Origin: a virus
Reading direction: 5' to 3' (one strand)
Virus record (IMG/VR): IMGVR_UViG_3300028462_000032
Location: 1 to 26,847 of that record
Length of the DNA stretch: 26,847 nucleotides
Part shown: positions 1-18,733 of the stretch, piece by piece
Layout: the number at the start of each line of letters is the position of its first letter
Numbering within the stretch: the stretch's first letter is position 1
Program-made: the position numbers and the translations under genes
Notes under the pieces: generated by a model
The model's input: only the letters and a program-made list of their open reading frames with translations
Database searches by the model: none
Told to the model about the DNA's origin: nothing

Positions 1-138
1 CAATCACTTCCCGGCAGGTCTGCGCGACCGCAACGTCATCATCAGGCGTGTCCTCGTGTCTTATCGTTGCTGTCAGACGGAACGCACCGGATGAAATTGT
101 CCAGCAATCCCGATCCTGGCCGTGGAAGTCTACTGTCA
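1..138. repeat. Left arm of a 138-bp perfect inverted repeat
   Basis: The reverse complement of this stretch is identical to 935-1072 as far as I can compare by eye, without a mismatch. Identity stops at 138/139 on one side. On the other side it reaches base 1 of the window, so the true arm may be longer. Both arms encode the same part of the HNH protein (from about T104 of the reconstructed gene). The 796 bases between them hold the HNH N-terminal region and an ATPase C-terminus. Confidence 0.95.
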
Positions 139-445
139 CCGCACTGTCAATTGAAGCAACCAGCGCCCTCGCCAACTGGACGTCTTCTTGGGAAGCGACT
201 GCAATCTGTCGGATGACACTGCCGGAAAATGTCCCAAGAGTTATGGTAACCCGATGAGCCTTCAAACCATAAGGACGGAGTTCCGCTACCGGACCATGCC
301 GCTCATCCAGATCATCGAACCAAATTCGCATGGCGGAGCGAAGGCCAGATTGATCGACGGCAACTCCTATTGCCGCGCCCGTCCCGTCCTCCAGTTCCTT
401 GCGGATGAGGTCCCTTTTTCCGGCAATCATCTCATTCTTCGTCAT
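1..445 (-). CDS. N-terminal part of an HNH-associated protein, running off the left edge (partial)
   Basis: An open frame on the minus strand begins at an ATG (445-443) and stays open for 148 codons to base 1. It begins MTKNEMIAGK and later enters the repeat arm (VTVDFHGQDRDC...), where it is identical to the start of the plus-strand HNH frame at 934-1467. I infer that it is the missing N-terminal half of that gene; joined in frame at V103/T104 they would give a 279-residue protein. The ATG overlaps the stop of the ATPase fragment by 14 bases (432-445), as expected for translational coupling in one operon. I recognise no domain in the N-terminal 103 residues; it may be a recognition or partner-binding region. 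No stop is visible, so what follows beyond the window is unknown. Confidence 0.75.
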   Translation of the reverse strand, partial: MTKNEMIAGKRDLIRKELEDGTGAAIGVAVDQSGLRSAMRIWFDDLDERHGPVAELRPYGLKAHRVTITLGTFSGSVIRQIAVASQEDVQLARALVASIDSAVTVDFHGQDRDCWTISSGAFRLTATIRHEDTPDDDVAVAQTCREVI

Positions 446-935
446 TTTCCGGGTTCAGTTCAGAAGGCTCAGGATCCGGCAGGTTTCGGAGCAGCTTTCG
501 CAGGTTGTTGGATATCTCGGACCGAATGTCCTCGAAAATTGGCTCTAGTTCTGCATTGGTATTGTTTTGCTCAGCCATTGCGAAGGCCCACAAGAGGAGA
601 TCCATACCCTCGACGGCGTAGCCGTTGGCCGCAGCACGTTGATAAATTTTCTGGTAGAAGTCATGGTGCTTGTTCAACAACACTGACGGAACATGGCCGG
701 AATCCCCGATGCTTCGAAGTGCTGGCTGCCATAGGTCGCCAGACGTGATGGTCTCGACAGCAGCGACGTGTATGGTATCGGGACTGACATTGTTCTCTAT
801 CGGGGCCTTGATCTTGATCTTTGGCCCCATGTTGTTGGAAATTTCCCCGGTCTGGGTGTTTGGATCGACCGAGTTCACTTGGGGCTTGGCGGCATTCGGA
901 GTACCCGCGATATTTTTGTTCGCACTGGTGTGATT
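432..935 (-). CDS. C-terminal fragment of a probable GHKL (Hsp90/MORC-like) ATPase
   Basis: The minus-strand frame from the repeat junction to the TGA at 434-432 encodes about 167 residues that look like a genuine protein end. It has a low-complexity linker, then a helical segment with HHDFYQKIYQ and GMDLLLWAFAMAEQ, and an acidic tail ending PENDEE. A phrase of the type 'N-x-x-H-x-F-Y-x-x-x-Y' followed by a Leu-rich helix is what I associate with the C-termini of bacterial GHKL ATP-binding proteins in restriction-like operons. That family call rests on pattern memory only. The ATPase core is absent because the frame is cut at 935 by the inverted-repeat arm. An apparent start inside the arm (ATG at 1025) lies antisense to HNH coding sequence and is judged false. 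The next gene starts inside its 3' end. Confidence 0.5.
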   Translation of the reverse strand, partial: NHTSANKNIAGTPNAAKPQVNSVDPNTQTGEISNNMGPKIKIKAPIENNVSPDTIHVAAVETITSGDLWQPALRSIGDSGHVPSVLLNKHHDFYQKIYQRAAANGYAVEGMDLLLWAFAMAEQNNTNAELEPIFEDIRSEISNNLRKLLRNLPDPEPSELNPENDEE

Positions 936-1467
936 GACAGTAGACTTCCACGGCCAGGATCGGGATTGCTGGACAATTTCATCCGGTGCGTTCCGTCTGA
1001 CAGCAACGATAAGACACGAGGACACGCCTGATGATGACGTTGCGGTCGCGCAGACCTGCCGGGAAGTGATTGTGCCGCTAATGGCAGCAATGGCTGAACT
1101 TATCGGCTACAATGAGGTCCAAGAAGAAGATGCTGCGGAGATTGCGGCTTTTGAAGGCGCAGTCCTCGAGTCCGTGGTGAAGCGGCGGGAACGCAATCCG
1201 CGAAATAGGGTCCTCTGTATTCGCCTGAAAGGCGAGCGTTGCGCAGCTTGTGGTCTAGAACCACGGAAATCCTACGGAATCGCAGGCGGTATCATTGAAG
1301 TCCATCACCTTGAACCACTATCCTTGCTTGCTGCACCAAGACCCTATGATCCCGTTTTCGACTTGGTGCCACTGTGCCCAAACTGTCACCGAGCCGTACA
1401 CACTCGGCGACCTGTCCCGTTGAGCTTGGCAGAACTTACGGCGACGAAGGATGCAGCCCGTGAATGA
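934..1467 (+). CDS. HNH endonuclease, N-terminally truncated at the repeat junction
   Basis: This frame encodes a classical zinc-stabilised HNH (McrA-like) nuclease domain near its C-terminus. Numbering from the TTG at 934, I see a C103-x2-C106 pair, the catalytic-type H124-H125 in the phrase EVHHLEPLS, and C148-x2-C151-H152 in DLVPLCPNCHRAVH. The expected activity is metal-dependent DNA nicking or cleavage in the cytoplasm. The N-terminal 30 residues come from the inverted-repeat arm. An in-frame TGA sits directly before the TTG, and no good ribosome binding site precedes it, so this start is forced by the rearrangement. The complete gene probably began with the 103 codons now on the minus strand at 445-139. 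The 3' end overlaps the helicase start by 17 bases, placing both in one transcription unit. Confidence 0.85.
   Translation: MTVDFHGQDRDCWTISSGAFRLTATIRHEDTPDDDVAVAQTCREVIVPLMAAMAELIGYNEVQEEDAAEIAAFEGAVLESVVKRRERNPRNRVLCIRLKGERCAACGLEPRKSYGIAGGIIEVHHLEPLSLLAAPRPYDPVFDLVPLCPNCHRAVHTRRPVPLSLAELTATKDAARE
935..1072. repeat. Right arm of the 138-bp inverted repeat
   Basis: This is the mirror copy of 1-138. It lies at the 5' end of the HNH coding frame on the plus strand. The base pairs just upstream (931-933) form an in-frame TGA, and there is no counterpart there of the HNH N-terminal codons that precede the same sequence in the left copy. The junction at 934/935 is therefore a rearrangement or chimera breakpoint, not a natural gene start. 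Confidence 0.95.
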
Positions 1468-3283
1468 ACCCCTTTCACATTTGCCCGAGACCTTTGATGA
1501 ACTTCGCAGAAAGGTCCCCGACGGGTTCAGCCTCTCGGAACGGATCGTTGACCCGATCGTTGAGGTGGAACGCGTAGGTGCAAGGATCGTTATTCGACTT
1601 GCAGGCCGCAGGATGGTCCGTGGTGAGCCCGTATTGATGCCCGCCCCGTCGATCCGCCACATGTGGGTCGTAGACGGTACAGTATTGCGTCCGCTGCCAG
1701 GGGATACTTCGAAGGCCGTCACCAAGGCGCTGGGCGATGCTGACCCTTCAGATATCCCCTACAGCCTCGCCATCAAGCTTATCCGCTCCACAGGTGGGGA
1801 GATCAGCACGGAACCTGGAGACAGTTTCCTGATTGCAGGCAAAGTCGTAGCTGAATCTCTCCCGTCAGAGATCGCAGTACCCGGCTTGGTCGCAAGCCTT
1901 TTTCCCTATCAGGCCCGTGGTGTTCAGTGGATGTGGGAAACGATCAACCTGACGGGTGGGCTCATTCTAGCCGACGAGATGGGCTTGGGAAAAACCCTCC
2001 AGATCATTGCATTACTGATGATCGACCCACCTGCCTCCTCGTCACCGGCTTTGATCGTCTGCCCAACCAGTCTCATTGCCAACTGGGTGCGCGAAATCCA
2101 GAAATTCGCTCCAGGGCTTTCCATGATGGTTCACCGGGGTCCCCACCGTGCTGGGATCTACCGGGACCTCCAACTCACCAGCGTTGTGATCACGACCTAC
2201 GACACGATTGTAAATGACATCGCCATTTTTTCCGCCTTCGAATGGGCATGGGTCATCTGCGACGAGGCTCAATCTATCAAGAATCCACATTCCAACCGGA
2301 GGAAAGCTATCGTAACGATCCCACGTCGCCGTGCGATACCAATGACTGGAACTCCGGTCGAGAATACCTTGTTGGACCTTTGGTCGCTTACTGACTTCGC
2401 CATCCCTGGTATGCTGGGGGAACGCAGCATCTTCGAGGTTGAATTCCCTGATACAAGAGAAGCTGGACAAGCTTTGGGGCGCATAACCGATCCAGTAATC
2501 CTCAAACGGCGTGTTAAGGACGTCGCCGGGGACCTGCCGGAACGGATCGACATCGACCTTCCCCTCGAACTTGATGATCGCCTGATTGACCATTACCGCG
2601 ATGTGCGCGAAACGACGATGGCCAAGTACCCCGTCGCCGGAGCTTTGGTTGCCACACTTCAACTTCAGTTGGTTTGCGCCCATCCTTGGTTACGACAGGA
2701 TGGCGTGGTTGATATTGATGCGGAGAACGCCACCGTTGAGCGGGCAGACTCATTGCCACTAATCACGCCCAAAATGGAACGAACGGTTGCCCTCCTTCGT
2801 GAGGCCTTCCAGAACGGTCGCAAGGTCATAGTTTTTGCGCTGTTCAACCGGATTGGCGACCTCATCCGCGAGGCATGTCGGGATTTTCCAGCTACATATT
2901 GGGGCGCGATCAATGGGTCCACCGCGCAAGAAATTCGCCAGCCGACCATCGACGAGTTCTCTGAGCACGATGGCCCGGCCTGCCTGATACTCAACCCGAA
3001 AGCAGCGGGTGCTGGCTTGAACATTACTGCGGCAACTGTGGTTATTCATTACACCCCGGTGTGGAATCCGGCCGTCGAGGCTCAAGCGAGTGCGAGGGCG
3101 CACAGACGAGGCCAGACCGAGCCCGTGACCGTTTACCGACTTTTTTACAAGGATACTGTCGAAGAGGTCATGATCGATCGATCTCTTTGGAAAAGCGAAC
3201 TGGCGAATGAAACTGTCCCTGTTTCCATCCGCGATGGGGACGACCTGAAACGTGCACTCGAGATCATGCCGGTGAAACAATGA
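1451..3283 (+). CDS. SNF2-family helicase/ATPase (superfamily 2)
   Basis: This 610-residue protein has the SNF2 motifs in order: motif I ADEMGLGKT (174-182), motif II DEAQ (271-274), motif III MTGTPVEN (about 298-305), and motif VI QASARAHRRGQ (545-555). Family members translocate on double-stranded DNA using ATP; in defence operons they usually feed or remodel DNA for a nuclease. About 170 residues precede motif I and are unassigned; they may bind a partner or DNA. The ATG at 1451 sits directly against GAAGG. An in-frame GTG at 1460 has a better-spaced AAGGA, so the true start could be nine bases later. The gene overlaps the HNH gene upstream and joins the EcoRII-N gene downstream by an ATGA overlap, so I infer co-translation and a shared function. 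Confidence 0.93.
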   Translation: MQPVNEPLSHLPETFDELRRKVPDGFSLSERIVDPIVEVERVGARIVIRLAGRRMVRGEPVLMPAPSIRHMWVVDGTVLRPLPGDTSKAVTKALGDADPSDIPYSLAIKLIRSTGGEISTEPGDSFLIAGKVVAESLPSEIAVPGLVASLFPYQARGVQWMWETINLTGGLILADEMGLGKTLQIIALLMIDPPASSSPALIVCPTSLIANWVREIQKFAPGLSMMVHRGPHRAGIYRDLQLTSVVITTYDTIVNDIAIFSAFEWAWVICDEAQSIKNPHSNRRKAIVTIPRRRAIPMTGTPVENTLLDLWSLTDFAIPGMLGERSIFEVEFPDTREAGQALGRITDPVILKRRVKDVAGDLPERIDIDLPLELDDRLIDHYRDVRETTMAKYPVAGALVATLQLQLVCAHPWLRQDGVVDIDAENATVERADSLPLITPKMERTVALLREAFQNGRKVIVFALFNRIGDLIREACRDFPATYWGAINGSTAQEIRQPTIDEFSEHDGPACLILNPKAAGAGLNITAATVVIHYTPVWNPAVEAQASARAHRRGQTEPVTVYRLFYKDTVEEVMIDRSLWKSELANETVPVSIRDGDDLKRALEIMPVKQ

Positions 3284-3717
3284 CTTCGCAAACCTTCCGA
3301 AAAACACTTAGCGCAAATGACGTTGGCACGACGGGCGGCCATATGGGTGGCATTCTAATACCAAAGGGGGAAAAGGAACTACTGGCATTCCTGCCCTCAC
3401 TCGATGCCAAAACCCTGAATCCATCAGCATGGATCGATTGCGTGACCGAACAAGGTGAAAGCCTTCGTTTGCGTTATGTTTACTACAACAATCGGATGCA
3501 CGCACCCAACGGCACCCGAAATGAGTATCGAATTACCTACATGACCGGATACCTTCGGCAAGCTGGGGCCAAGGAAGGCGACACTTTTGAGATCAGCCGC
3601 ACTGAGGGAAACGCAAGCTACAACATCCGCGTGGCCGCTAAACAAACAGAAGCGCCTGTTGAGGCCGATGACGGTCCAGTGCGCATCAAGCTTTCAGGAT
3701 GGCGCCGGGTCCATTGA
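3280..3717 (+). CDS. Stand-alone EcoRII-N-like (B3-type) DNA-binding protein
   Basis: The 145-residue product contains LSANDVGTTGGHMGGILIPK (about residues 10-29), followed by a beta-rich stretch with RYVYYNNRMH and EYRITYMTGYLRQAG. This matches my memory of the effector-binding N-terminal domain of EcoRII-like restriction enzymes, a B3-like DNA-recognition barrel. No nuclease domain is attached, so it probably gives sequence recognition to the helicase and nuclease encoded beside it (inference). Its ATG overlaps the helicase stop (ATGA), indicating coupling. The last residues, VRIKLSGWRRVH, closely match the end of the convergent AIPR protein, RVRLSGRSRVH, although the two proteins are otherwise unrelated. 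Confidence 0.75.
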   Translation: MTSQTFRKTLSANDVGTTGGHMGGILIPKGEKELLAFLPSLDAKTLNPSAWIDCVTEQGESLRLRYVYYNNRMHAPNGTRNEYRITYMTGYLRQAGAKEGDTFEISRTEGNASYNIRVAAKQTEAPVEADDGPVRIKLSGWRRVH

Positions 3718-3762
3718 AGCCCGCGTGCGTAATACTTCAATGAACCCGCGATCGCCCTGACA
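3694..3762. terminator. Imperfect inverted repeat between convergent genes, possible bidirectional terminator
   Basis: The convergent stop codons are 19 bases apart. The sequence CGGGTCCATTGA at the end of the plus gene pairs, with one mismatch, with TCAATGAACCCG at the end of the minus gene, around a 19-base loop. A longer, weaker pairing extends outward; by hand, 17 of 24 positions match. There is no long T-run, so termination is only a possibility. The symmetry is also explained by both genes encoding the same C-terminal peptide. Confidence 0.4.
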
Positions 3763-5851
3763 ATCGGACTCTGGGCGCCTCATCCTCATCGACATATCCG
3801 GAAGCACGGGCCCGCCCCAGAACCTCCATTGCGATAAGACACTGTTTTTCTGACGGAATCTTCGTAGGAAGGGCTGCGCAGGCTTTCAGAATGCCATCTT
3901 CCTTGGGAGTGAACAGCTTGTTCGGTGCCGTCCATGTCCTAAGCCGTACCCAAAACGGGCCGCCCAGTTCGACAGCCTTTGTCTGTGCCTCGATCCCGGA
4001 CACAAGTGCGGCGTCACGCCTTCCATCCCGTTCAATGATCTTGGCGTCCAGCGGTTCGACAAGACAATTGGCGAGCCCCGGGCCATAGTCGATCTCGCGC
4101 CGTCGAAGCGCTGCCCAGCATCCCTGCTTTTTCGCCCATTCCGTGATATTCTTAATGCCACTCTCTGGAGCCGTTATCACGTCTGCCGCGACCTCGGCCG
4201 CGTCAAGCAATGCGTTCAACAGTTCCTTCGGTACATGTTGGCGAGCCCAGACCTGATCCATGTCGATCAACATATCCCGTTGGTCCACGTCATCCACAAG
4301 CTTGGCAATGGCATATGTGATGATGTTCGCACGATATCCGCCGGGGTACCATTCCTGGCGAGGCACCGCCTTTTCCAAGGTTCTGAAAACAATGACCTTG
4401 GCCACGAGACGACGATACCAAGTCTCATCATACTTCTTGTCGCTTGCGGACCAAGCCTCGCCGATTTCTGACGCAAAAGCCGCGAAATTCTTCTGCGCGC
4501 CCTTGCTTACGGTGTCAGGTTTCAGCCGGAAAGACAGTTCGATCTTCGCAAGATCCGTCTTGGTGAAAAACTGCCCTCTGGGATTTTCCATGTCGAAGCG
4601 GCGTTTTTCGGCCTGGGACCTTTTGGCCCTTTCGACCAGGTATTGACCGCGCGCGCGCTCGTAAAACCATCTTGTTTCTCGGTTGGTCCCTTCGGCAGCA
4701 GGGGCGAAAACCCGTCGTGAATAGTCCTCCATCCTCATATGGAACGGGTGGTTTGAGAAGAAATCGGCAGCACTGATCTTGTTCTGGCTGTTGGCATATT
4801 TTGAGATGTTCGGCACCACGCGTTCGGAATCGTCCGCAGGCACTACGGTGAGTTTCATTTGGACGTGAACCTTGCCAAGGTTGTCGGAGGCGGCTCGCAG
4901 GGCGGCGTGGAGAGATGCCGTTGTTTGGCCGCCGTTCACGATCTGGAGGTTGTGGGCAGACAGGATGCGAAGGCCCTCCGACGTCGCTTCAGTCACCACA
5001 GCATCTGCAGTTGCGGACAAACCATTGTTATAGCTGAAGAACATCTCTGGTTCAGTCTTGATCGTATCGCGGATACCTTCATTCACAGATTTCCGCCGGG
5101 CTTGGATGAAGCTCCGGATGTTGGACTCAAGTAGCCTGGCGCCCCATTTTTCGTAGATTTCGGCCAGTTGAGTCCCCCGGATCACCGCCAAGTAGGCAGG
5201 CAACTCGGCGTCGTCCCCTGATGCCGCAAGCGCAGGCAGCGCACCGCCGAAGTCGTTTGCGAAATCAACGACGATCTTCTCCTTGGACGCGGACCTCTCA
5301 ATTCGGTGCAGGCGGTTCAGATCCCAGATGTTGTAGGTGACGGGTATCTCGGCAATCTTACCGGCGACGACCGCGTCAGTCCGCGCGCTGTACAACGCGT
5401 TGGTGACGAGGATCAACTTGACCTTACTCACCGAAGGCCACGCTTCGTAAATCATGTTGGCAAGGCCTGCCTCTGGCGTTTCGGGATGTAAAGCATCCCT
5501 AAACTCCGTGCGCCTGGCGGCAGCAACAAAATTGATCAAGTGCCCGAAGGTCTTCTTGGCATCCGCTGCATTGATCGTGGCGGGTTCTCCATCAGGAAAT
5601 GGCTCGCAGATAATGACACTCAGGACGCCCTCCGCGTCACGGGGATCACCACCCACGCCGTCCACCCTAAGCGTCTTGCCGGACGCTCCACCTTCAAATA
5701 GCACGCGATCTGCCGTTTCGATTTCACCCTCGGCTTCAAGACTCCCGCTGAGCCGTTCAAAGAAGATATCCTCGAAGGGAAGGCCCGTCGCCGTCATTTC
5801 CTCTTTGATTTCTGCGATCAGGATGCGGTTGAATTCGGCAGGGTCTTCCAA
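3737..5851 (-). CDS. AIPR-family (abortive infection phage resistance) protein
   Basis: The 704-residue protein carries the family hallmarks: FFSYNNGLSATAD (Y274-N275-N276-G277) and LQIVNGGQTTASLH (Q303 onward), followed by ISKYANSQNKISAADFF. AIPR proteins occur in abortive-infection and restriction-like operons. Their biochemical activity is not well defined, and I assign none beyond a defence effector role. The start is probably TTG at 5851: an in-frame TAG lies 33 bases upstream, and GGAGAG precedes the TTG by seven bases, so no ATG is needed. The next in-frame Met is residue 19 (EEMTATGLP). The gene converges on the HNH-SNF2-EcoRII-N operon and shares a C-terminal peptide with the EcoRII-N-like protein. 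Base composition resembles that of its defence neighbours more than that of the GC-rich phage genes. Confidence 0.9.
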   Translation of the reverse strand: MEDPAEFNRILIAEIKEEMTATGLPFEDIFFERLSGSLEAEGEIETADRVLFEGGASGKTLRVDGVGGDPRDAEGVLSVIICEPFPDGEPATINAADAKKTFGHLINFVAAARRTEFRDALHPETPEAGLANMIYEAWPSVSKVKLILVTNALYSARTDAVVAGKIAEIPVTYNIWDLNRLHRIERSASKEKIVVDFANDFGGALPALAASGDDAELPAYLAVIRGTQLAEIYEKWGARLLESNIRSFIQARRKSVNEGIRDTIKTEPEMFFSYNNGLSATADAVVTEATSEGLRILSAHNLQIVNGGQTTASLHAALRAASDNLGKVHVQMKLTVVPADDSERVVPNISKYANSQNKISAADFFSNHPFHMRMEDYSRRVFAPAAEGTNRETRWFYERARGQYLVERAKRSQAEKRRFDMENPRGQFFTKTDLAKIELSFRLKPDTVSKGAQKNFAAFASEIGEAWSASDKKYDETWYRRLVAKVIVFRTLEKAVPRQEWYPGGYRANIITYAIAKLVDDVDQRDMLIDMDQVWARQHVPKELLNALLDAAEVAADVITAPESGIKNITEWAKKQGCWAALRRREIDYGPGLANCLVEPLDAKIIERDGRRDAALVSGIEAQTKAVELGGPFWVRLRTWTAPNKLFTPKEDGILKACAALPTKIPSEKQCLIAMEVLGRARASGYVDEDEAPRVRLSGRSRVH

Positions 5852-5881
5852 CGCAACACTCTCCGAAATTTCTGCTTCGAT

Positions 5882-6070
5882 CTAGACGGGCAACCGAACA
5901 GACATCCTGTAGCCACCCCATTGCTGAAAACCGTAGCCGCCCCAAAGACTTGATGCAACTTTTCCCTTCAATTCTGAGAAGATCGATGGGGTACCAAGGG
6001 GCGACAAATTTGAGAGATTGGAGTTGCGCTTGTGTCGTTTGAACTCGCCGCCAAACTTCGCGACGCCCAA
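5882..6070 (-). CDS. Small unrecognised ORF upstream of AIPR, possibly a gene remnant
   Basis: This 62-codon frame on the minus strand starts at a TTG (6070) and ends 30 bases before the AIPR start. Its end, LWGGYGFQQWGGYRMSVRLPV, contains a short internal repeat (WGGYGFQQ / WGGYR) mirrored in the DNA. An in-frame TGA lies just upstream of the TTG and no clear ribosome binding site is visible. It could be a real small gene co-transcribed with AIPR, the broken 3' end of a lost gene, or chance. Confidence 0.25.
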   Translation of the reverse strand: MGVAKFGGEFKRHKRNSNLSNLSPLGTPSIFSELKGKVASSLWGGYGFQQWGGYRMSVRLPV

Positions 6071-6194
6071 TAGTAGCCCCCATCAGTTGGTCGGGCCGCG
6101 GCACCACGTCCCCCTGGCATGGTTCCTCCCCGGCCCCATTTGTATGCGGGGGGGCGCAGCGCGGCATTTCGCTAGCGACAGGCACTTTCACCGG

Positions 6195-6375
6195 GGAATC
6201 CAGGCGGAAGCCACCTGCCGCACGATTTTGGAAAAAGCGACTCATTATCAAAGGCTTGCGGAATCACGACTTTGGCGCGCTGGATTCTTTTGCGGAATCC
6301 AGGGAATCCAGTTTGTGGAAGCCACCACGCCGGAAGCCAGCCAGCGGAAGCCACCTGCTGAGAAGCCATTGAATC
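6195..6375. repeat. Tract of short interspersed repeats (GGAATCCAG and GGAAGCCACC)
   Basis: GGAATCCAG occurs at 6195, 6294 and 6303. GCGGAAGCCACCTG occurs exactly at 6204 and 6344, with related GGAAGCCA copies near 6317 and 6332. CTGGATTC (6280-6287) faces GAATCCAG (6295-6302) as an eight-base hairpin stem with a seven-base loop. The spacing is irregular, so this is not a CRISPR array. Read leftward it gives a Trp-Leu-Pro-rich frame of 68 codons that I do not trust as a gene. Confidence 0.65.
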
Positions 6376-6437
6376 CACGTATATTTTTCATTTGACAAAG
6401 CTGCCCCTATTGACCTACCCCTTGATCATCGAAGAAT

Positions 6438-6475
6438 AGCGCCCGGAGGATAGCCCTCGCGGGCGCTTTCGTTTT
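6438..6475 (+). terminator. Rho-independent terminator
   Basis: AGCGCCCG (6438-6445) pairs perfectly with CGGGCGCT (6460-6467), with an inner GAGG/CCTC extension, and is followed by TTCGTTTT on the plus strand. It lies about 90 bases before the first phage methyltransferase. It may insulate the phage operon from upstream transcription or act as an attenuator for a promoter just upstream. Confidence 0.8.
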
Positions 6476-6561
6476 CCCCCACATCGCGGATCCCGATTTT
6501 GCTGCTGCCCCTTCCGGCGGCGCGTCTCGGCTTGCCCGCCCTGTCCGAATGAGAATCGCCC

Positions 6562-7821
6562 ATGGACCTCGTCTTTGCGCCGAGCCAGATAGAGACTTGG
6601 CCGATTGACCGGCTGCGGCCCTATGCCCGCAATGCCAAGATCCACGGCACCGATCAGGTGGCCAAGATCGCGGCCAGCATGGCGAAGTTCGGCTGGACCG
6701 TCCCCTGCATGGTGGCCGACGATGGTGAGCTGATCGCCGGGCATGGCCGGGTGCTGGCGGCGGCGATGCTGGGTCTGAAGGACGTGCCGGTGATCCGGCT
6801 CAGCCATTTGGACGAGGCCGAGCGCCGCGCCTACCGCATCGCGGACAATAAGCTGACCGAGTTGGGCGAGTGGGACGAGGCGATGCTGCGCGACGAGATC
6901 GCGGGGCTGCTGGCCGAAGATTTCGACCTGTCGCTGCTCGGGATCACCGACGAAGATCTGGACGCCCTGCTGCGCGATCCGGATCAGGTGGAGAGTGGCG
7001 CTGTCGAGGGCGAGGATGATATTCCCGAACCTCCGGTCACGCCGGTGTCGATTGCGGGCGATCTCTGGCAGCTCGGATCACACCGGCTGATCTGCGGCGA
7101 CAGCACGTCTGCCGATGTGGTCGGTCGATTGCTCGGCGATGTGAAGCCACTGCTGATGGTCACCGATCCGCCCTATGGCGTCGAGTATGATCCGTCTTGG
7201 CGCAACCACGCGGGCGCGGCCAAAACCAAACGTACCGGCAAGGTCCTGAACGATGACCGTGCCGATTGGCGCGAAGCGTGGGCGCTGTTCCCCGGCGATG
7301 TGGCGTATGTCTGGCATGGCGCGCTGCATGCCACGACCGTGGCCGAGAGCCTAGTGGCGGCAGGTTTTGCCGTTCGGTCGCAGATCATCTGGGCCAAGGA
7401 CCGCCTCGTCCTCAGCCGGGGCGATTACCACTGGCAGCATGAGCCCTGCTGGTATGCCGTGAAAAAGACCGGCAAGGGCAACTGGGCGGGTGACCGGAAA
7501 CAGACCACGCTCTGGCACATCTCGGGCAACGACCAGGATGCCGCCACCGTGCATGGCACGCAGAAGCCGGTCGAATGCATGCGCCGCCCGATGCTGAACA
7601 ATTCCAGCCCGGGCCAGGCGGTGTTTGAACCCTTCATGGGATCGGGCACCACCCTGATCGCGGCGGAAACCACCGGACGGGTGTGCTTCGGGATCGAATT
7701 GAACCCGGCCTATGTCGACGTGGCCATCGAGCGCTGGCAGCAATTCACCGGCGCCAACGCCGTGCTTGCCGACACCGGCGAGACCTTCGCCGACCTGAAG
7801 GCGAAGAGGCTGGCGGCATGA
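6562..7821 (+). CDS. ParB-like domain fused to a DNA methyltransferase (DPPY type, probably N6-adenine)
   Basis: The 419-residue protein begins with a ParB/sulfiredoxin-like domain (about 1-100, with GELIAGHGRVLAA and RAYRIADNKLTELG). A beta-class methyltransferase domain follows, with the catalytic motif DPPY at 202-205 and the AdoMet-binding motif FMGSGT at 358-363 near the C-terminus. DPPY usually marks adenine-N6 methylation; the target base is inferred from this. Such fusions are common in prophages, where they may protect phage DNA from host restriction or mark it for packaging or regulation. The gene ends in an ATGA overlap with a paralogue, so the two are translated together. No partner nuclease is encoded beside it, so it is treated as an orphan phage methylase and not part of the defence island. 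Confidence 0.92.
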   Translation: MDLVFAPSQIETWPIDRLRPYARNAKIHGTDQVAKIAASMAKFGWTVPCMVADDGELIAGHGRVLAAAMLGLKDVPVIRLSHLDEAERRAYRIADNKLTELGEWDEAMLRDEIAGLLAEDFDLSLLGITDEDLDALLRDPDQVESGAVEGEDDIPEPPVTPVSIAGDLWQLGSHRLICGDSTSADVVGRLLGDVKPLLMVTDPPYGVEYDPSWRNHAGAAKTKRTGKVLNDDRADWREAWALFPGDVAYVWHGALHATTVAESLVAAGFAVRSQIIWAKDRLVLSRGDYHWQHEPCWYAVKKTGKGNWAGDRKQTTLWHISGNDQDAATVHGTQKPVECMRRPMLNNSSPGQAVFEPFMGSGTTLIAAETTGRVCFGIELNPAYVDVAIERWQQFTGANAVLADTGETFADLKAKRLAA

Positions 7822-9161
7822 ATGCGCCCTTGCTGCCGGGCCGGATCGAGCATTGGCCCCTCGCCCGCCTCAAACCCTACGCCCGCAACGCCAAGACCCA
7901 TGACGCCGATCAGGTCGCCAAGATCGCCGCCAGCATGGCGGAGTTCGGCTGGACCGTGCCGGTGCTGGTGGCGGCTGATGGGGAGCTGATCGCGGGCCAT
8001 GGTCGTATACTGGCAGCCGCCCTCCTGGGGCTGACCGAGGCCCCGGTGATCGTGCTGGGCCACCTGACCGAAGCGCAGCGCCGGGCTTACCGCATCGCTG
8101 ACAATAAACTCACCGAACTGGGCGGCTGGGACGAGGCGCTGCTGTTGCAGGAATTACAGGCGCTGCTGGCCGACGATTTCGACCTCGGGCTGATCGGCAT
8201 CCCCGACGATGAACTGGATGCGCTGCTGGCGGATGCCGACGACTGCCCGGCGATTTCCGACGATGCGGCTGATGCGATCCCCGAACCACCAACCGAACCG
8301 ATAACCCGCCCGGGCGACATCTGGACGCTGGGCAAGCATCGGCTGTGCTGCGGCGATGCCACCGATCCCGCCGCCGTTGCCAGACTGATGCAGGGCGAAC
8401 AGGCCACGCTGATGTTCACCTCACCGCCCTACGCCCAGCAGCGCGATTACGGCGCGGCGAAGGAAAAGGTCGGTGATTGGGATGCGCTGATGCAGGGCGT
8501 CTTCACCGCAGCGCCGGTCACGACCGACGCCCAGCTTCTGGTCAACCTCGGCCTCGTGCACCGCGACAGCGAATGGCAGCCTTATTGGCAAGGATGGGTG
8601 GAATGGATGCGCAAATCTGGCTGGCGGCGCTTTGGCTGGTATGTGTGGGATCAGGGCCCCGGCCTGCCGGGCGACTGGAACGGACGTCTGGCCCCGTCGC
8701 ACGAGTTCATTTTCCATTTCAACCGCACCCCCCGCAAACCGCACAAGACCGTGCCGTCCAAGCATGCGGGCGAAACCCTTGGCGGCGGTGGACTGCGCGG
8801 CGCCGACGGCACCATCCACGCCAAGACCGGAACCGGCAACGCGATCCAAAGCCACCGCATCCCCGACAGCGTGTTCCGCATCATGCGCCACAAGGGCGGG
8901 CTGGGCGCAGCCGGATCGCACCCGGCAGTTTTTCCGGTGGCGCTGGTCGAGGCGGTGCTGACGGCATTCTCGGATTCGGGCAATCTGATATATGAACCGT
9001 TCTGCGGGTCTGGCACGCAGCTTGTTGCCGCAGAACGCGCTGGGCGGCGCTGTTTTGCGATGGAGCTGGACCTGGTCTATTGCGACGTGGCCGTGCGGCG
9101 ATGGGAAATGGCGACGGGAAAGACGGCGCAACGATCATCCCTTGACGAGGCAGCAGCATGA
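7818..9161 (+). CDS. Second ParB-like/DNA methyltransferase fusion (SPPY type, probably N4-cytosine)
   Basis: The 447-residue paralogue of the preceding gene has the same layout: a ParB-like N-terminus (GELIAGHGRILAA, RAYRIADNKLTELGG), the catalytic tetrapeptide SPPY at 202-205, and FCGSGT from residue 395. The N-terminal halves are alike even at DNA level, indicating a tandem duplication. The methyltransferase halves have diverged: this one is longer between the motifs and has SPPY in place of DPPY. SPPY is typical of cytosine-N4 methylases, so the pair may modify two different targets (inference). The start is the ATG at 7818 in the ATGA overlap with the upstream stop; an apparent longer frame begins inside the previous gene. 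The next small gene also follows by ATGA overlap. Confidence 0.92.
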   Translation: MNAPLLPGRIEHWPLARLKPYARNAKTHDADQVAKIAASMAEFGWTVPVLVAADGELIAGHGRILAAALLGLTEAPVIVLGHLTEAQRRAYRIADNKLTELGGWDEALLLQELQALLADDFDLGLIGIPDDELDALLADADDCPAISDDAADAIPEPPTEPITRPGDIWTLGKHRLCCGDATDPAAVARLMQGEQATLMFTSPPYAQQRDYGAAKEKVGDWDALMQGVFTAAPVTTDAQLLVNLGLVHRDSEWQPYWQGWVEWMRKSGWRRFGWYVWDQGPGLPGDWNGRLAPSHEFIFHFNRTPRKPHKTVPSKHAGETLGGGGLRGADGTIHAKTGTGNAIQSHRIPDSVFRIMRHKGGLGAAGSHPAVFPVALVEAVLTAFSDSGNLIYEPFCGSGTQLVAAERAGRRCFAMELDLVYCDVAVRRWEMATGKTAQRSSLDEAAA

Positions 9162-9382
9162 AACAGTCGCGCGCCATGTCGCTGGTCGAGTCCATCGTCA
9201 ATGTGATCGTGGGCTATTGCGTCGCCGTCGCCACTCAGGTCCTGATCTTCCCGTCCTTCGGTGTGCACGTCACGCTGGCGCAGAACCTGAAGATCAGCGC
9301 GGCCTTCACGATGATATCGATCTGCCGCTCCTTCGCATTGCGGCGCATGTTCGAGGCGATCCGGATGCGAGGTACCAAATGA
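9158..9382 (+). CDS. Small phage membrane protein (DUF7220-like)
   Basis: The 74-residue product has two hydrophobic stretches (VNVIVGYCVAVATQVLIF and ISAAFTMISICRS) followed by a basic end (LRRMFEAIRMRGTK), suggesting two membrane segments with a positive cytoplasmic tail. I recall similar small proteins in Rhodobacterales prophages under DUF7220; the function is unknown. It overlaps the methyltransferase stop by ATGA, so it belongs to the same operon, and it is the last rightward gene before the leftward cluster. A gap of about 50 bases separates it from the convergent DUF3489 gene. Confidence 0.75.
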   Translation: MKQSRAMSLVESIVNVIVGYCVAVATQVLIFPSFGVHVTLAQNLKISAAFTMISICRSFALRRMFEAIRMRGTK

Positions 9383-9434
9383 GAAACGCCGCCCTATGTA
9401 GAAGGTGTTCATCTTGGCATCGGCAAATGGCGGT

Positions 9435-9974
9435 TCACACTGCGGGGAGCCGATAAACCCTTCCGCGTGTGGCATCCTTTTCAGAGGCCACAACCAGCCC
9501 CAACTTCTTGCCCAACGCCCCGGACATGGCCCCCCTCGCAGTGTGTGCCAACCACCCCGTTGCGGCGACGATCTCGTCCATCGTGGTGCCCTCAGGCGCG
9601 CGAAGCAGTTCAATCAGCATCGCCTGCTTCGTGCCAGCGCGCAACATTGGCACTTTGGGCGCTGGCGCTTCGGCGGCGTCTTCATGGATCTCGACCTCTG
9701 TCTTGGCCACCACGGGCTCGATCCCGATGGCCAGCAGGCCCGCGTCGGTGACCACCAGCGTTGTGCCATGGCCATCACCGGTCTCGCGCCAGAGCGGTTC
9801 GCCGCGCCGCAAGTTGGCGTCAACCTCCTGCAGCCAGCCGCGCTCAATCATCTTGGTCACGGCCATCTTCGCCGCCGCACCTGCCAGCCCTTTCGGAAGC
9901 GGCAGGGCAATGTTGTCCGGGCGCTGGGATCCGGCGGTCAGGATGGTGGTCTGCGTTTCGGTAAGTTTCGTCAT
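9435..9974 (-). CDS. DUF3489-domain protein
   Basis: The 179-residue protein has an N-terminal segment (MTKLTETQTTIL, LPLPKGLAGAAAKMA) of a small winged-helix-like kind. Its C-terminal DUF3489 region, about residues 110-179, has TKQAMLIELLRAPEGTTMDE and ATGWLAHTARGAMSGALGKK. This family is common in alphaproteobacterial phages and gene-transfer regions. The helix-turn-helix-like pattern suggests DNA binding, but no regulatory role has been shown that I know of. It is the last gene of the leftward cluster and has a gap of nine bases from the preceding small gene, so it is probably co-transcribed with it. Confidence 0.85.
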   Translation of the reverse strand: MTKLTETQTTILTAGSQRPDNIALPLPKGLAGAAAKMAVTKMIERGWLQEVDANLRRGEPLWRETGDGHGTTLVVTDAGLLAIGIEPVVAKTEVEIHEDAAEAPAPKVPMLRAGTKQAMLIELLRAPEGTTMDEIVAATGWLAHTARGAMSGALGKKLGLVVASEKDATRGRVYRLPAV

Positions 9975-9983
9975 GGCTTTCCC

Positions 9984-10208
9984 CTATTGGTCGTGGGTGG
10001 CAAGGAAGGTGGCGATGCGCAACAGCAGATCGTTGTGGCCGTTGGCATCCGCGCCAAGGATCACGTCGCCATCATCGTCCCGCTCCAGACCGACGATCTC
10101 ACGCAGCAGGGCGATGGCGTCGTCGCATGCGGCCAGGCGTTCGGCCTCCCAAGCTGCGGTGATCGCGTCCTGTTCGATCTGATGGCGCTGGGCGGGATCA
10201 AGCGGCAT
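9984..10208 (-). CDS. Small hypothetical phage protein
   Basis: I do not recognise this 74-residue acidic protein (MPLDPAQRHQIEQDAITAAW..., ending IATFLATHDQ). It is predicted to be mostly helical. The ATG at 10208 was chosen because it overlaps the end of the upstream gene by 11 bases, a normal coupling arrangement. A longer frame starting at 10322 would run deep into that gene and has a Pro/Arg-rich, non-protein-like N-terminus. Function unknown; the context is a cluster of accessory phage genes. Confidence 0.7.
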   Translation of the reverse strand: MPLDPAQRHQIEQDAITAAWEAERLAACDDAIALLREIVGLERDDDGDVILGADANGHNDLLLRIATFLATHDQ

Positions 10209-10434
10209 GATTGGCCTCCCACTTGGCGAAGTCGTCGGCCATGCCAATGCTGTCGGCGATCTTGCGCAGGATGCCGGGCGACAGGCCCTCCAGATCGGCA
10301 GCGAGTTTGGCTTCGGCCACAAAGGTTTCGCGCGGGAGGTGGTTCAGGGTGCAGTAGTGCAGGCGCATCGAGGCTTCGACCCCGGCGGGGTTCAGGTCGG
10401 GCGCCAGTTCGTGTAGCAGCGTCTGGTAGGACAT
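10198..10434 (-). CDS. Small hypothetical phage protein
   Basis: The 78-residue product (MSYQTLLHELAPDLNPAGVE..., ending FAKWEANHAA) appears helical and soluble, and I assign no family. It starts soon after a leftward terminator-like hairpin (10488-10513), and TGGAGTC lies about ten bases before the ATG. It shares 11 bases with the next gene. It may therefore begin a sub-operon of three genes (this one, 9984-10208 and DUF3489). Confidence 0.7.
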   Translation of the reverse strand: MSYQTLLHELAPDLNPAGVEASMRLHYCTLNHLPRETFVAEAKLAADLEGLSPGILRKIADSIGMADDFAKWEANHAA

Positions 10435-10475
10435 TGGTGACTCCAGTGATCGGGAGGCGCGACATGCGGCCCTTT

Positions 10476-10513
10476 TACGAAAACACGCCCCGCCACCGCG
10501 GGGCTTGGCGGGG
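10476..10513 (-). terminator. Terminator-like hairpin in the leftward cluster
   Basis: Read on the minus strand, CCCCGCCA (10513-10506) pairs with TGGCGGGG (10495-10488) around a ten-base GC-rich loop and is followed by CGTGTTTTCGT. It lies between the 75-residue gene and the 78-residue gene. The T-run is short, so termination may be partial. Confidence 0.5.
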
Positions 10514-10522
10514 TGGCGGCGT

Positions 10523-10750
10523 TCACTTGGCGTGTTCGCCCTCCTTGAAAGCGCTATCAGTGATCTGGCGCAGCAGGCTGGCGTAGTGGTTCAGGGTGCC
10601 GACGTCGCCCCAGTTGATCTCATCTGGGTGGGTCTCGAAATGGTCGTCGCTCAGGGCCTTCAGGCGATCCAACATCGCGTCGATCTGGAACTTGGTGGTC
10701 ATGAATGCGTCGAGGGCCTTGGTATTGTCGGTCGCGCGGCGGGTGGTCAT
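10523..10750 (-). CDS. Small hypothetical phage protein with a duplicated leader
   Basis: The product is 75 residues from the ATG at 10750 (MTTRRATDNTKALDAFMTTK...). GGAGACC precedes that ATG at good distance. An upstream in-frame Met at 10780 would add MMQLTPGDHA, but those codons coincide with the ribosome-binding part of a leader repeated before another gene, so I take them as untranslated. The protein is helical and acidic (DDHFETHPDEINWGDVGTLN), and no family is recognised. It ends just before the hairpin at 10488-10513. Confidence 0.7.
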   Translation of the reverse strand: MTTRRATDNTKALDAFMTTKFQIDAMLDRLKALSDDHFETHPDEINWGDVGTLNHYASLLRQITDSAFKEGEHAK

Positions 10751-10852
10751 GGCGTGGTCTCCGGGGGTGAGTTGCATCATTTTCGTGTAATCACCATCGC
10801 TCTAGCGGGGCGCGTAGTGTAGGCAAATACAAGCAATATCAGTGCTTTCTGA
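10746..10852 (-). promoter_or_regulatory. Leader copy 1: duplicated 5' region with an operator-like dyad
   Basis: This 107-base stretch is clearly related to 11444-11550. Both contain the start codon, GGAGACCA/GGAGACCAA ribosome binding site, TGCAACTCACC on the coding strand, and at the far end the plus-strand word GCAATATCAGTGC (10833-10845). The other copy has GCAATATCATTGC, a perfect dyad. TTGCTT on the minus strand might be a -35 element, but no firm -10 box was found. Confidence 0.55.
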
Positions 10853-11220
10853 TTAAACTCCCGTCGCTGCTCGGCCCGCATCGGCTTGTGGCACCACGTG
10901 CACCCACTGGCAGCCAATCCACATGTAGAGATGGGCAAACTCTCGCGTCGGGCGCGGCAGGATGCGCGGGGCACGGGGCGGGGCGAAGCAATCCAGCACC
11001 TCGGGCATGACCTGCCGAATTTCCCGGGCAACGAGGATATCCTCGGGCTTCCAGCGCGCCAGAGCGGGCAGCATGTGGGCCGGGTAGCCGTCGAAATGGA
11101 CGTAGACATGGGCCCATTCGTCGGGGGTGATCTGGATGGCGATCGCGCGCGGGTGCTCATCTGCGTACCTCAGATCTGCTGCATGCCGGGCAGCGTGGCA
11201 ACATCGTTGCGGATGGTCAT
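10853..11220 (-). CDS. Small phage protein, probably frameshifted near 11170
   Basis: The ATG at 11220 is preceded by AAAGGATC at good distance and encodes MTIRNDVATLPGMQQI before a TGA at 11172-11170. The next frame then continues without a break as RYADEHPRAIAIQITPDEWAHVY... to a TAA at 10853 and looks like the genuine body (Trp/His-rich, ending DAGRAATGV). One missing base near 11172 would join both parts as QQI-x-RYADEH. Without a shift, the second frame can start only at a TTG at 11236, overlapping the upstream stop and lacking a ribosome site. I see no slippery heptamer, so a one-base deletion or sequencing error is more likely than programmed frameshifting. The function is unknown. Confidence 0.6.
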
Positions 11221-11232
11221 GGCTTGATCCTT

Positions 11233-11448
11233 TCAACGGGCGGCAGTGGCGGCGGCCAGCATGGCCTTGGCACCGGCGATGCGTCCGGCCTCGTAGGCGT
11301 CCTCGAGGGCGGCACGTATCGCCCAGATGGCGACATCGTGAAAATTGAGGCTATCGCTGCTCCGGGTTTCCAGCGTTTCAAGGAAGAAATGCTTGGCGGC
11401 GATCTCCAGCAGCAGGGCTTCGCTGGGTCCTGCAGTCTTGGCGGTCAT
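11233..11448 (-). CDS. Small hypothetical phage protein, first gene of the leftward cluster
   Basis: The 71-residue product from the ATG at 11448 (MTAKTAGPSEALLLEIAAKH...) ends in an Ala-rich helix (AGRIAGAKAMLAAATAAR). GGAGACCAA lies just upstream. An in-frame Met at 11475 (MQLTLGDQA) falls in the duplicated leader and is judged untranslated. It is divergent from the small terminase gene; the 117-base gap holds leader copy 2. No family is recognised. Confidence 0.7.
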   Translation of the reverse strand: MTAKTAGPSEALLLEIAAKHFFLETLETRSSDSLNFHDVAIWAIRAALEDAYEAGRIAGAKAMLAAATAAR

Positions 11449-11550
11449 GGCTTGGTCTCCGAGGGTGAGTTGCATCGTTCTGGTACAATCAGAGTCGCTC
11501 TTTCCCGGAGTGTAATCAACTGAATAACATGCAATATCATTGCTTTAGGA
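11444..11550 (-). promoter_or_regulatory. Leader copy 2 and divergent control region with operator-like dyad
   Basis: This is the second copy of the 107-base leader, lying between the leftward cluster and the rightward late operon. It holds the perfect dyad GCAAT-ATC-ATTGC (11531-11543). On the minus strand, TTGCAT followed 17 bases later by ACACTC-like sequence may be a weak promoter for the cluster. Its right end runs into AGGAAAGG, the probable ribosome site of the small terminase gene, so a factor bound here could affect both directions (inference). Confidence 0.55.
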
Positions 11551-11565
11551 AAGGCGGTCGGCACC

Positions 11566-12105
11566 ATGGACGGTATGAGCGAGCGGGAATATTCCGGCCA
11601 TTCCGGCCTGTCGCGCGGGGCGATCCAGAAGGCCCGCAAGGCCGGGCGGCTGGTGGTTTACGGTGATGGGTCGATCAATGCGGCAGCATCGGACGCCCGT
11701 CGGTCGGAGATGACCGATCCGGATCAGCAGAGGCGCAGCACGGGTGGCGGCGACAGTGGCTTCTCCGGCCCGGCCGACAGTTCATCCTATCTGAAGGCGC
11801 GCACCGCGCTGACAGTTTACCAAGCGCAGGAACGCCAGCTGGCAATTCAAAAGAAGAAGGGCACGCTGGTTGATCGGGCGCGGGCTGAAGCGTTGGTATT
11901 CCGCCTGGCGCGGCAAGAACGCGATGTCTGGGTGACATGGCCCGCGCGGGTGGCGGCGCTGATGGCCGCGCAAATTGCAGCGGAGGTGGAAAAGCAATCC
12001 GGAAAACCGGTGATGATCGAGGCCGCGATCCTGCAGAGGGTGCTGGAAACCCATGTCAGAGAGCAACTCGCAGCCCTCGCCGATCTCCGGGTCTCGCTTG
12101 CATGA
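11566..12105 (+). CDS. terS: Small terminase subunit (Nu1-like)
   Basis: The 179-residue protein begins with a helix-turn-helix-type DNA-binding segment (SGLSRGAIQKARKAGRLVVY, about residues 13-32). A linker and a long charged helix with YQAQERQLAIQKKKGTLVDR follow. This layout matches lambda Nu1-like small terminases, which recognise the packaging site and recruit the large subunit. The start may be the ATG at 11566 or the one at 11575; AGGAAAGG lies 11 bases before the former. It heads the rightward late operon, and its 3' end overlaps the large terminase frame by 53 bases, the usual sign of coupled subunits. Confidence 0.9.
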   Translation: MDGMSEREYSGHSGLSRGAIQKARKAGRLVVYGDGSINAAASDARRSEMTDPDQQRRSTGGGDSGFSGPADSSSYLKARTALTVYQAQERQLAIQKKKGTLVDRARAEALVFRLARQERDVWVTWPARVAALMAAQIAAEVEKQSGKPVMIEAAILQRVLETHVREQLAALADLRVSLA

Positions 12106-14113
12106 GAGTGAAGAGCAGCTTGGCACAAACGGAGACCAGGATGACCTGACCGCCGACCTCGACCTCGGGTTTGACGGGGCCGAGGACATCTTGCGCACCT
12201 GGCGCCGGGGCATGCGCCCGGACCCGGATCTGACGGTGTCGGAATGGGCGGACCAGCACCGTTTTCTGTCATCGCGGGCGTCTGCCGAACCCGGGCGCTA
12301 TCGCACGGCGCGGACGCCCTACCTGCGCGAAATCATGGACGCTTTGTCGCCCCGCCATCCGGCGCAGCGGATCTCGTTCATGAAAGCGGCGCAGGTCGGG
12401 GCGACCGAGGCGGGCAACAACTGGATTGGTTTTGTGATCCACCATGCGCCGGGGCCGATGCTGGCGGTACTGCCGACGGTGGAAATGGCCAAGCGCACCT
12501 CGCGGGGGCGGCTCGATCCGCTGATCGAGGACAGCCCGGCGCTACGAGAACGGGTCAAACCGGCGCGGTCGCGCGACGCTGGTAACTCGATGCTGTCGAA
12601 GGAATTCCCCGGCGGTATCTTGGTGCTGACCGGCGCTAACAGCGCCACTGGCCTGCGCTCGATGCCTGCGCGCTACATCTTCCTCGACGAGGTTGACGCC
12701 TATCCGGCGTCCGCCGACGAGGAAGGCGATCCGGTCACCTTGGCCGAAGCGCGGACCACGACCTTCTCGCACCGCCGCAAGGTGTTCATGGTCTCGACCC
12801 CGACAATCCGGGGCCTGAGCCGGATCGAGCGCGAGTTCGAGGCGTCAGACCAGCGCCGGTATTTCGTGCCTTGCCCGCACTGCGGAGCGATGCAGTGGTT
12901 GCAGTTTGAACGCCTGCGCTGGGCGAAGTGCCAACCCGAAACGGCGGCCTACGCCTGCGAGGGGTGTGAAAAGCCCATCGCCGAGCATCACAAGACGCAG
13001 ATGCTGGAGCGGGGCGAATGGCGGCCGACGGCGGTGTCGGTCGATCCGCATTCCATCGGCTTTCACATCTCGGCGCTCTACTCGCCGCTGGGCTGGAAAA
13101 GCTGGGTGCAAATCGCGCGGGACTGGTTGGCGGCTCAGGGCTCCGACGAGATGCTGCGCGCCGCACGCAATACCCTGCTCGGCGAGACATGGGTCGAGTC
13201 TGGCGATGCGCCGGAATGGCAGCGTCTGGCCGACCGCCGCGAGGTTTTCGCCGCCACCGTGCCGCATCTCGGGTTGTTCCTGACCGCCGGGGCGGATGTG
13301 CAGAAGGACCGGATCGAAGTCGACATCTGGGCCTGGGGCCGGGGATTGGAAAGCTGGCTCGTCGAACACATCGTCATTCCGGGTGGGCCAGAAGATACCG
13401 CTGCATGGGATAAGCTGACAGCCCTTCTCGGGCGGTCATGGGCGCATGAAAGCGGCGCGGTGATGCAGCTGTCCAAGCTGGCCATCGACACCGGCTACGA
13501 GGCCCCGGCAGTTTACGCCTGGTCGCGGGCCGCCGGTTACGCGCAGGTCACCCCGATCAAAGGCGTGGAAAGCTTCAACCGTTCCACCCCGGTGTCGGGA
13601 CCGACTTTTGTCGATGCCACGATCGGCGGCAAGCGCCTGCGGCGCGGGGCGCGGCTCTGGACCATCGCGGTGTCGACCTTCAAGGCCGAGACGTATCGGT
13701 TCCTGCGGCTGGAACGCCCCTCGGACGAGGATCGCGCTGTTGGTGTCTGCGATCCCGCGGGCACCATGCACCTGCCCAGTTGGGCCGACACCGAATGGCT
13801 GAAGCAGTTGGTGGCGGAACAGATGGTGACGGTGCGCAACAAGCGCGGCTTCGGCCACCAGGAATGGCAGAAAATGCGCGAGCGAAACGAGGCGCTGGAC
13901 TGCCGGGTCTATGCCCGTGCTGCAGCATGGATCCTCGGCGCCGACCGCTGGGACGAGGCGACGTGGCGTTCGCTGGAAGTCCAGGCGGGCGTGGAAACCA
14001 AAGAACAAGTTGTGGCCGTGGTGGTGGAGCAAACCGCCCCAACCGCCGGAACCGTGCTGACACCGCGCCGCCGCCGTTCCGGCGCGGTGACCCCGACCTA
14101 TTTGAGGAAATGA
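12053..14113 (+). CDS. terL: Large terminase subunit (GpA family)
   Basis: The 686-residue ATPase-nuclease packages phage DNA into proheads. Visible signatures are a Walker A-like KAAQVGATEAGNN (from K111), Walker B YIFLDEVDAYP (D212-E213), a motor coupling region VSTPTIRGLSRIE, and a zinc-binding pair C274-x2-C277 and C302-x2-C305. The C-terminal nuclease region includes AGADVQKDRIEVDIWAWGRG. Length and order match lambda GpA-type enzymes, which cut at cos sites; a cos site is therefore expected nearby but was not identified. The start at 12053 lies inside the small-subunit gene. The C-terminal tail is Ala/Val/Thr-rich and then Arg-rich (TPRRRRSGA), and may contact the portal. Confidence 0.96.
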   Translation: MSESNSQPSPISGSRLHESEEQLGTNGDQDDLTADLDLGFDGAEDILRTWRRGMRPDPDLTVSEWADQHRFLSSRASAEPGRYRTARTPYLREIMDALSPRHPAQRISFMKAAQVGATEAGNNWIGFVIHHAPGPMLAVLPTVEMAKRTSRGRLDPLIEDSPALRERVKPARSRDAGNSMLSKEFPGGILVLTGANSATGLRSMPARYIFLDEVDAYPASADEEGDPVTLAEARTTTFSHRRKVFMVSTPTIRGLSRIEREFEASDQRRYFVPCPHCGAMQWLQFERLRWAKCQPETAAYACEGCEKPIAEHHKTQMLERGEWRPTAVSVDPHSIGFHISALYSPLGWKSWVQIARDWLAAQGSDEMLRAARNTLLGETWVESGDAPEWQRLADRREVFAATVPHLGLFLTAGADVQKDRIEVDIWAWGRGLESWLVEHIVIPGGPEDTAAWDKLTALLGRSWAHESGAVMQLSKLAIDTGYEAPAVYAWSRAAGYAQVTPIKGVESFNRSTPVSGPTFVDATIGGKRLRRGARLWTIAVSTFKAETYRFLRLERPSDEDRAVGVCDPAGTMHLPSWADTEWLKQLVAEQMVTVRNKRGFGHQEWQKMRERNEALDCRVYARAAAWILGADRWDEATWRSLEVQAGVETKEQVVAVVVEQTAPTAGTVLTPRRRRSGAVTPTYLRK

Positions 14114-14115
14114 CG

Positions 14116-14331
14116 ATGACTCTGGCTGAGATGCAGGCGCTGCTCGCGGCCCTTCTGGGCATGCGCTTCGGCGGGGTGCGGTCGATCACCTATGACGGGC
14201 GGCAGATCACCTACGGCTCGGACGCGGAACTTGCCGCCGCGATCTTCGATCTGGAACGGAGGATCGCAGCCGCCGACACCACCGTCACGCGGTCGCGGGT
14301 GTCCCGGCCCTTTGCCAGCAAGGATCTGTGA
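14116..14331 (+). CDS. gpW-like head-tail joining protein
   Basis: The 71-residue protein (MTLAEMQALLAALLGMRFGG..., ending SRPFASKDL) has the length and helix-beta-helix pattern of lambda gpW (68 residues), which sits under the portal and stabilises the filled head. GAGGAAATGACG places a good ribosome site before the ATG at 14116. An in-frame ATG at 14110 overlaps the terminase stop as ATGA and is the alternative start, adding two residues. It lies between the terminase and portal genes, as in lambda. Confidence 0.85.
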   Translation: MTLAEMQALLAALLGMRFGGVRSITYDGRQITYGSDAELAAAIFDLERRIAAADTTVTRSRVSRPFASKDL

Positions 14332-14333
14332 TC

Positions 14334-15848: not shown

Positions 15849-15853
15849 TCCAG

Positions 15854-17227: not shown

Positions 17228-17254
17228 ACCTCTGACATACAAAGGATCTGAACC

Positions 17255-17635
17255 ATGCCCACGCTGACCCAAGCGCCGTCGCAAGGCGATGTCGTCAAAT
17301 TCCAGATTGACCCGAACTACACCAACGAAGCGATCACCCTGCTTCTCGGCACGAACTACAAGTCCGGATCGGTACTGGGCAAGATCACCGCCAGCGGCAA
17401 ATACAAGCTGGCCGTTGTCGGCGCGGTGGATGGCTCGGCCGTGGCACTGGCGGTGCTGCTGAACCCGGCAGATGCCACGGCGGCGGATGCCACCGGCGTC
17501 ATTCTGGCGCGCGGGCCCGCCATCGTCTCGAAAGCTGCACTGGTGTTTGACGTGTCGGTCAACACCGTGCCTCTGACCGCCACCAAATGGACCGAACTGG
17601 TCGCCGTCGGCATCGTGCCGCGCACCAGCGCTTGA
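17255..17635 (+). CDS. Head decoration protein (gpD-like)
   Basis: The 126-residue protein (MPTLTQAPSQGDVVKFQIDP..., then GKYKLAVVGAVDGSAVALAV) matches the lambda gpD/HDPD family: small beta-rich trimers that clamp the expanded capsid. GGATC precedes the ATG by six bases. It lies between the protease and the major capsid gene, as in lambda. Membership is judged by sequence feel and position. Confidence 0.87.
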   Translation: MPTLTQAPSQGDVVKFQIDPNYTNEAITLLLGTNYKSGSVLGKITASGKYKLAVVGAVDGSAVALAVLLNPADATAADATGVILARGPAIVSKAALVFDVSVNTVPLTATKWTELVAVGIVPRTSA

Positions 17636-17693
17636 TTCGCAGCGTCATAATCGCCACCCCTGATCCCACCCCAAAACCTCCTGGAGACACCCA

Positions 17694-18716: not shown

Positions 18717-18733
18717 TCTGAAGGGACGGAAGA

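Follow-up and report, generated by a model that had tools for sequence, protein, structure and literature searches.

A probable fold-back chimera in a restriction-type operon at the end of an assembled phage contig

Inverted chimeras, MORC/GHKL operons and the window

Two described systems come closest to the locus reported here, namely the inverted chimeras that form during multiple displacement amplification (MDA), whose description is reportedly the work of Lasken and Stockwell, and the MORC/GHKL operons, which are said to have been described by Iyer and colleagues. Of the 475 chimeras mapped in the MDA paper, 406 were inverted; in 337 of these the two segments came from within 10 kb of each other, and 93.5% of such near inversions had complementary bases where the segments met (PMC1855051). 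The paper argues that neither hairpin self-priming nor a switch onto the displaced strand is a major route, so that the route proposed below for our locus is tentative (PMC1855051). The operon paper, from 2008, describes MORC/GHKL operons with a SWI2/SNF2 helicase, HNH/EcoRII-like nucleases, cytosine methylases and Vsr (PMC2292703).

The stretch of DNA analyzed here, hereafter the window, is a complete IMG/VR record of 26,847 bases, and base 1 is the end of that record. As the preliminary description had claimed, bases 1-138 are the exact reverse complement of bases 935-1072; the arms are 100% complementary, with zero base differences, and 796 nt lie between them. The left arm starts at the very first base of the record. 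Because the next-longest exact inverted match in the window is only 17 bp, the 138-bp repeat is not there by chance. The features at this end of the window are as follows.

1..138, minus strand: left arm, a stretch internal to the HNH gene, in the HNH sense
139..934, minus strand: inner segment, in which the end of the ATPase gene leads into the start of the HNH gene, inverted with respect to the remaining operon genes (16 relatives are collinear on one strand)
435..934, minus strand: C-terminal fragment of a presumably GHKL/MORC-like ATPase (tblastn in 16 relatives, the relatives' open frames, and the MzaB match of a full-length relative)
934..935, no strand: probable chimeric junction, where ATPase codons meet the HNH arm in its second copy; short microhomology is possible at 935-942 (15 distinct relatives compared)
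935..1072, plus strand: right arm, the HNH stretch where it normally lies, ahead of the rest of the gene
1073..1467, plus strand: rest of the HNH endonuclease gene up to its 3′ end, including the HNH domain (Pfam HNH, PF01844)
1451..3283, plus strand: SWI2/SNF2-type helicase gene (Pfam SNF2-rel_dom and Helicase_C; best PADLOC models ZorD and DpdE)
3280..3717, plus strand: protein with an EcoRII N-terminal (effector-binding) domain (Pfam EcoRII-N)
3737..5851, minus strand: AIPR abortive-infection protein (Pfam AIPR and AIPR_N; PADLOC MzaE)

The preliminary description also held that the HNH gene is split across the two strands and that its parts join into one uninterrupted frame of 279 aa, and both points stand. 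The 5′ codons run on the minus strand from 445 down to 1, and the gene resumes on the plus strand at 1073, after the second copy of the 138 bases; the HNH domain lies on the plus strand, where Pfam finds it on the translation of 934-1464. The first 445 bases and the 392 bases of 1073-1464 add up to 837 bases, or 279 codons, followed by a TGA stop at 1465-1467. The ATPase fragment itself gave no match in either Pfam or PADLOC. In the relatives, the C-terminal region of a protein annotated as "ATP-binding protein" is 56-81% identical to it, and the full-length relative in one viral contig (L006), where PADLOC also assigns MzaE to the AIPR protein, matches MzaB over residues 7-354. The GHKL/MORC-like label, which we take to hold for the fragment of the window as well, comes in part from this match. 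Searches of the window against Rfam (gathering thresholds) and for tRNA and tmRNA genes came back empty.

The relatives of the operon resemble the MORC/GHKL-SNF2 operons (PMC2292703) in that they have dcm, vsr, an MzaB-like ATPase, HNH, SNF2, EcoRII-N and often AIPR. Genes for vsr and dcm lie upstream of the ATPase in both annotated plasmids and in six of seven stretches compared, and the AIPR gene is on the strand opposite to the helicase in the window and in eight relatives (L006, L007, L008, L010, L011, L013, L015 and L017). The combination of a GHKL ATPase with an SNF2 helicase and an HNH/EcoRII-like nuclease was thus found, its GHKL part in the relatives only, through the MzaB match. Unlike those operons, the copy in the window is on a phage contig, is shortened by the contig end, so that the record is without dcm, vsr and the N-terminus of the ATPase, and is apparently scrambled by a fold-back. 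The inverted chimeras of the MDA paper (PMC1855051) are similar in that they, too, join segments from within 10 kb of each other in opposite orientations, and a few complementary bases are often present at the join. They differ from our case in that the structure in the window is found in an assembled contig and not in single reads, matches at its junction are only hinted at, and the switch would lead back onto sequence that had already been copied.

Gene order in the relatives and the point of breakage

The operon occurs in plasmids, viral contigs and genome contigs, and 16 of 23 relative loci (L004-L026) carry ATPase, HNH, SNF2 and EcoRII-N in this order on one strand. Two of these, L007 and L015, are identical in the stretches compared, so that the 16 intact relatives amount to 15 distinct ones. 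The fold-back structure was seen in none of the 23 loci, the seven non-intact ones being shortened, reordered or distant: L019 has only the helicase from residue 275 on plus EcoRII-N, the distant L020 and L021 have helicase and EcoRII-N ahead of ATPase and HNH on the same strand, and L023-L026 are similar to the helicase only. In a sample of 292 Rhodobacterales genomes, the helicase was found at E ≤ 1e-100 in eight, seven of which have the normal order (four of the seven are the same as, or nearly the same as, loci already counted). The eighth genome (G269, locus L198) has an HNH match that ends at about residue 110 and is followed by other sequence up to the contig end.

The strands of the matches agree with this order. 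The 60-kb viral contig G001, which carries L006, has 13 stretches that match the window. Twelve of them, spanning window 1030-19,895, are collinear on one strand with gaps between, and the thirteenth, window 267-941, is on the other strand. Parts within 1-941 likewise match the strand opposite to the helicase in G002-G005 (G005 being the Pseudotabrizicola MAG of L010); the inner segment is therefore opposite to the helicase in five of the six records searched, the sixth, G006, having no match there. Taken with the collinear order of the 16 loci, these strands place two nearby segments of the window in an inverted join. At the DNA level, window 1-6500 matched eight plasmid records and none of the phage records with which it was compared. 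When viral contigs, evidently with the record of the window excluded, were scanned for exact patterns from the uninterrupted HNH stretch (133-160) and from the ATPase side of the junction, there were no matches.

The tblastn match of the ATPase fragment starts at its residue 1 (base 932) in all 16 intact relatives, whose frames extend 312-386 residues further upstream. The ATPase gene is thus broken at 934/935, and the N-terminal 312-386 aa are missing from the window. We compared the bases around this point position by position with the ATPase codons of the relatives, dropping L015 as the same as L007. All 15 distinct relatives agree with the window at 934 and one of them at 935, followed by 11, 15 and 9 at positions 936-938, 2 at 939, and 10, 8 and 7 at 940-942; agreement drops past 942, with 0 at 943. 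When scored against these ATPase codons, stretches of 4-10 bases taken from 935 onward rank in the top 1-7% of window stretches of equal length (top 1.8% for the 7-mer). This pattern, a post hoc and not strong one, suggests that a few bases may have matched where the switch occurred. The 7-mer GTGATTG is found at the junction (930-936) and again at the outer end of the right arm (1066-1072), and from the latter copy it follows that the first seven bases of the record are its complement; the recurrence may be due to chance.

A probable fold-back at a contig end and its alternatives

The order in the relatives and the break at the junction indicate that in bases 1-934 the ordinary upstream portion of the operon is written backwards and joined to a second copy of the HNH stretch. 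We read the structure as a fold-back (inverted) chimera located where the assembled contig ends, with a probability of roughly 0.9, and the 138-bp repeat that it leaves is most likely an artefact of amplification or assembly. The preliminary description had leaned toward an inverted duplication or a fold-back artefact, and the uninterrupted ATPase-HNH-SNF2 order of the relatives supports that choice. The true order would be dcm, vsr, ATPase, HNH, SNF2 and EcoRII-N on a single strand. A strand would have been copied leftward through HNH into the ATPase gene and would have halted at window base 934. Its 3′ end would then have primed anew on the opposite strand, where the 138-bp HNH stretch starts, possibly with the help of a few matching bases. 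Copying would have continued rightward through HNH into the helicase, and the assembled contig would follow this chimeric path, re-enter the HNH arm at its left end and end there. We infer that the event took place in the test tube (for example in MDA or library making) or in assembly, and not in the phage; an error of the library or of the assembly would look alike.

We also looked at how common such an end is. The fold-back anatomy, scored as an exact 20-mer that lies in the terminal 60 bases of a contig and recurs inverted in the available stretch, was found at 0 of 119 and 0 of 102 comparable contig ends (221 end examinations). The 102-end set includes ends on eight loci whose contigs are also in the 119-end set, and the control leaves out the non-viral contigs (L004, L005 and L009-L026) and four loci already covered. 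The structure is therefore uncommon, which lowers the case for a routine product of the assembler and leaves that for a one-off chimera as it was. A length of 138 bp is not known to be the word length of any assembler. In one 6,661-base viral contig (L143), a 41-bp inverted repeat links the two ends, in a different layout.

The alternative that fares best is an inverted duplication that truly exists in the genome of the phage or the host, in some or all of the population, in which the reversed ATPase-HNH copy inactivates the operon. The sequence itself would fit such an event, and living cells too are known to produce microhomology-primed fold-backs. Damage to the operon is seen elsewhere, in L019, where the helicase begins at residue 275, and in G269, where HNH reaches only to about residue 110, and the rarity of the anatomy among comparable contig ends is not what a routine artefact predicts. 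However, the repeat ends exactly at the end of the record and its arms are free of any base difference, a paired inverted repeat is present at this place in none of the 16 intact relatives, and a real duplication would have to be accompanied either by the remainder of the palindrome or by the left flank as it originally was, neither of which the record contains. On balance we favor an artefact over a true inverted duplication in the organism, which we regard as unlikely. Its narrower form, in which a microhomology-primed fold-back in a cargo defence operon is real in part of the phage population and switches the operon off, is a little less probable still.

The preliminary description had also raised a phase-variable switch, in which segment 139-934 flips between the 138-bp arms and turns the HNH gene on and off. 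As it stated, flipping would restore the HNH frame by frame arithmetic. It had also pointed out that the ATPase lacks its N-terminus in both orientations, and this is borne out, since the arm outside the segment is always HNH sequence; neither orientation gives a whole ATPase gene. Moreover, 14 of the 16 intact relatives have no exact inverted 16-mers within 2.5 kb of the ATPase fragment, and the other two (L007 and L015) have one 16-mer each, which is its own palindrome and not a paired repeat. Pfam searches covered 26 window translations, from part of the frames, several of which drew no match; the families identified were those of nucleases, helicases, AIPR, methylases, phage structural proteins and proteins of unknown function, with no recombinase among them. 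With the repeat missing from intact relatives, we rejected the switch as very improbable. If a linear phage genome ended in a natural hairpin (telomere) and the assembler had read through it, inverted sequence at a contig end would be accounted for, but we rejected this as the least probable reading of all, because the loop would be 796 nt of coding sequence and the turn would fall within an ATPase gene that all 16 intact relatives have in full, a related viral contig runs on through the place in question, and protelomerase families are absent from the same partial set of 26 translations.

The fold-back chimera that we prefer has consequences for annotation. It keeps out two misleading frames, the chimeric 432-1025 on the minus strand and the shortened HNH frame 934-1467, as well as a false invertible switch. 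Contig ends of this kind can be told apart by comparing gene order and the point where homology stops with those of intact relatives.

The operon as cargo and its phage neighbors

Judged from its parts, the operon is of a known restriction-type kind, carried as cargo by a phage whose relatives are in Rhodobacterales. In the contigs of L007 and L008 (G002 and G003), the whole operon is flipped relative to the phage methylase and terminase genes, unlike in the window and G001, so that the cargo occurs in both orientations at that place. Directly upstream of the first phage methylase gene, window 6103-6500 holds a conserved non-coding stretch of about 390 bp. It has matches in 42 of the 292 Rhodobacterales genomes, many of them partial, and the longer ones start at window 6103-6120; the same methylase follows the stretch in 18 of 20 loci examined. 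When the left neighbors of this stretch were compared (window 4609-6108 with L199-L218, L006 and L183), the 23 sequences fell into 18 mutually non-matching groups (tblastx, E ≤ 1e-10), and they include a type ISP restriction enzyme and an exonuclease on a Roseicitreum plasmid. Rhodobacterales prophages thus appear to have a cargo (defence) hotspot whose border is at the left edge of window 6103-6500. Further along, two adjoining N6/N4 methylase genes at window 6562-9158 have in common a 300-nt stretch at 77% identity, which suggests that the pair arose by tandem duplication.
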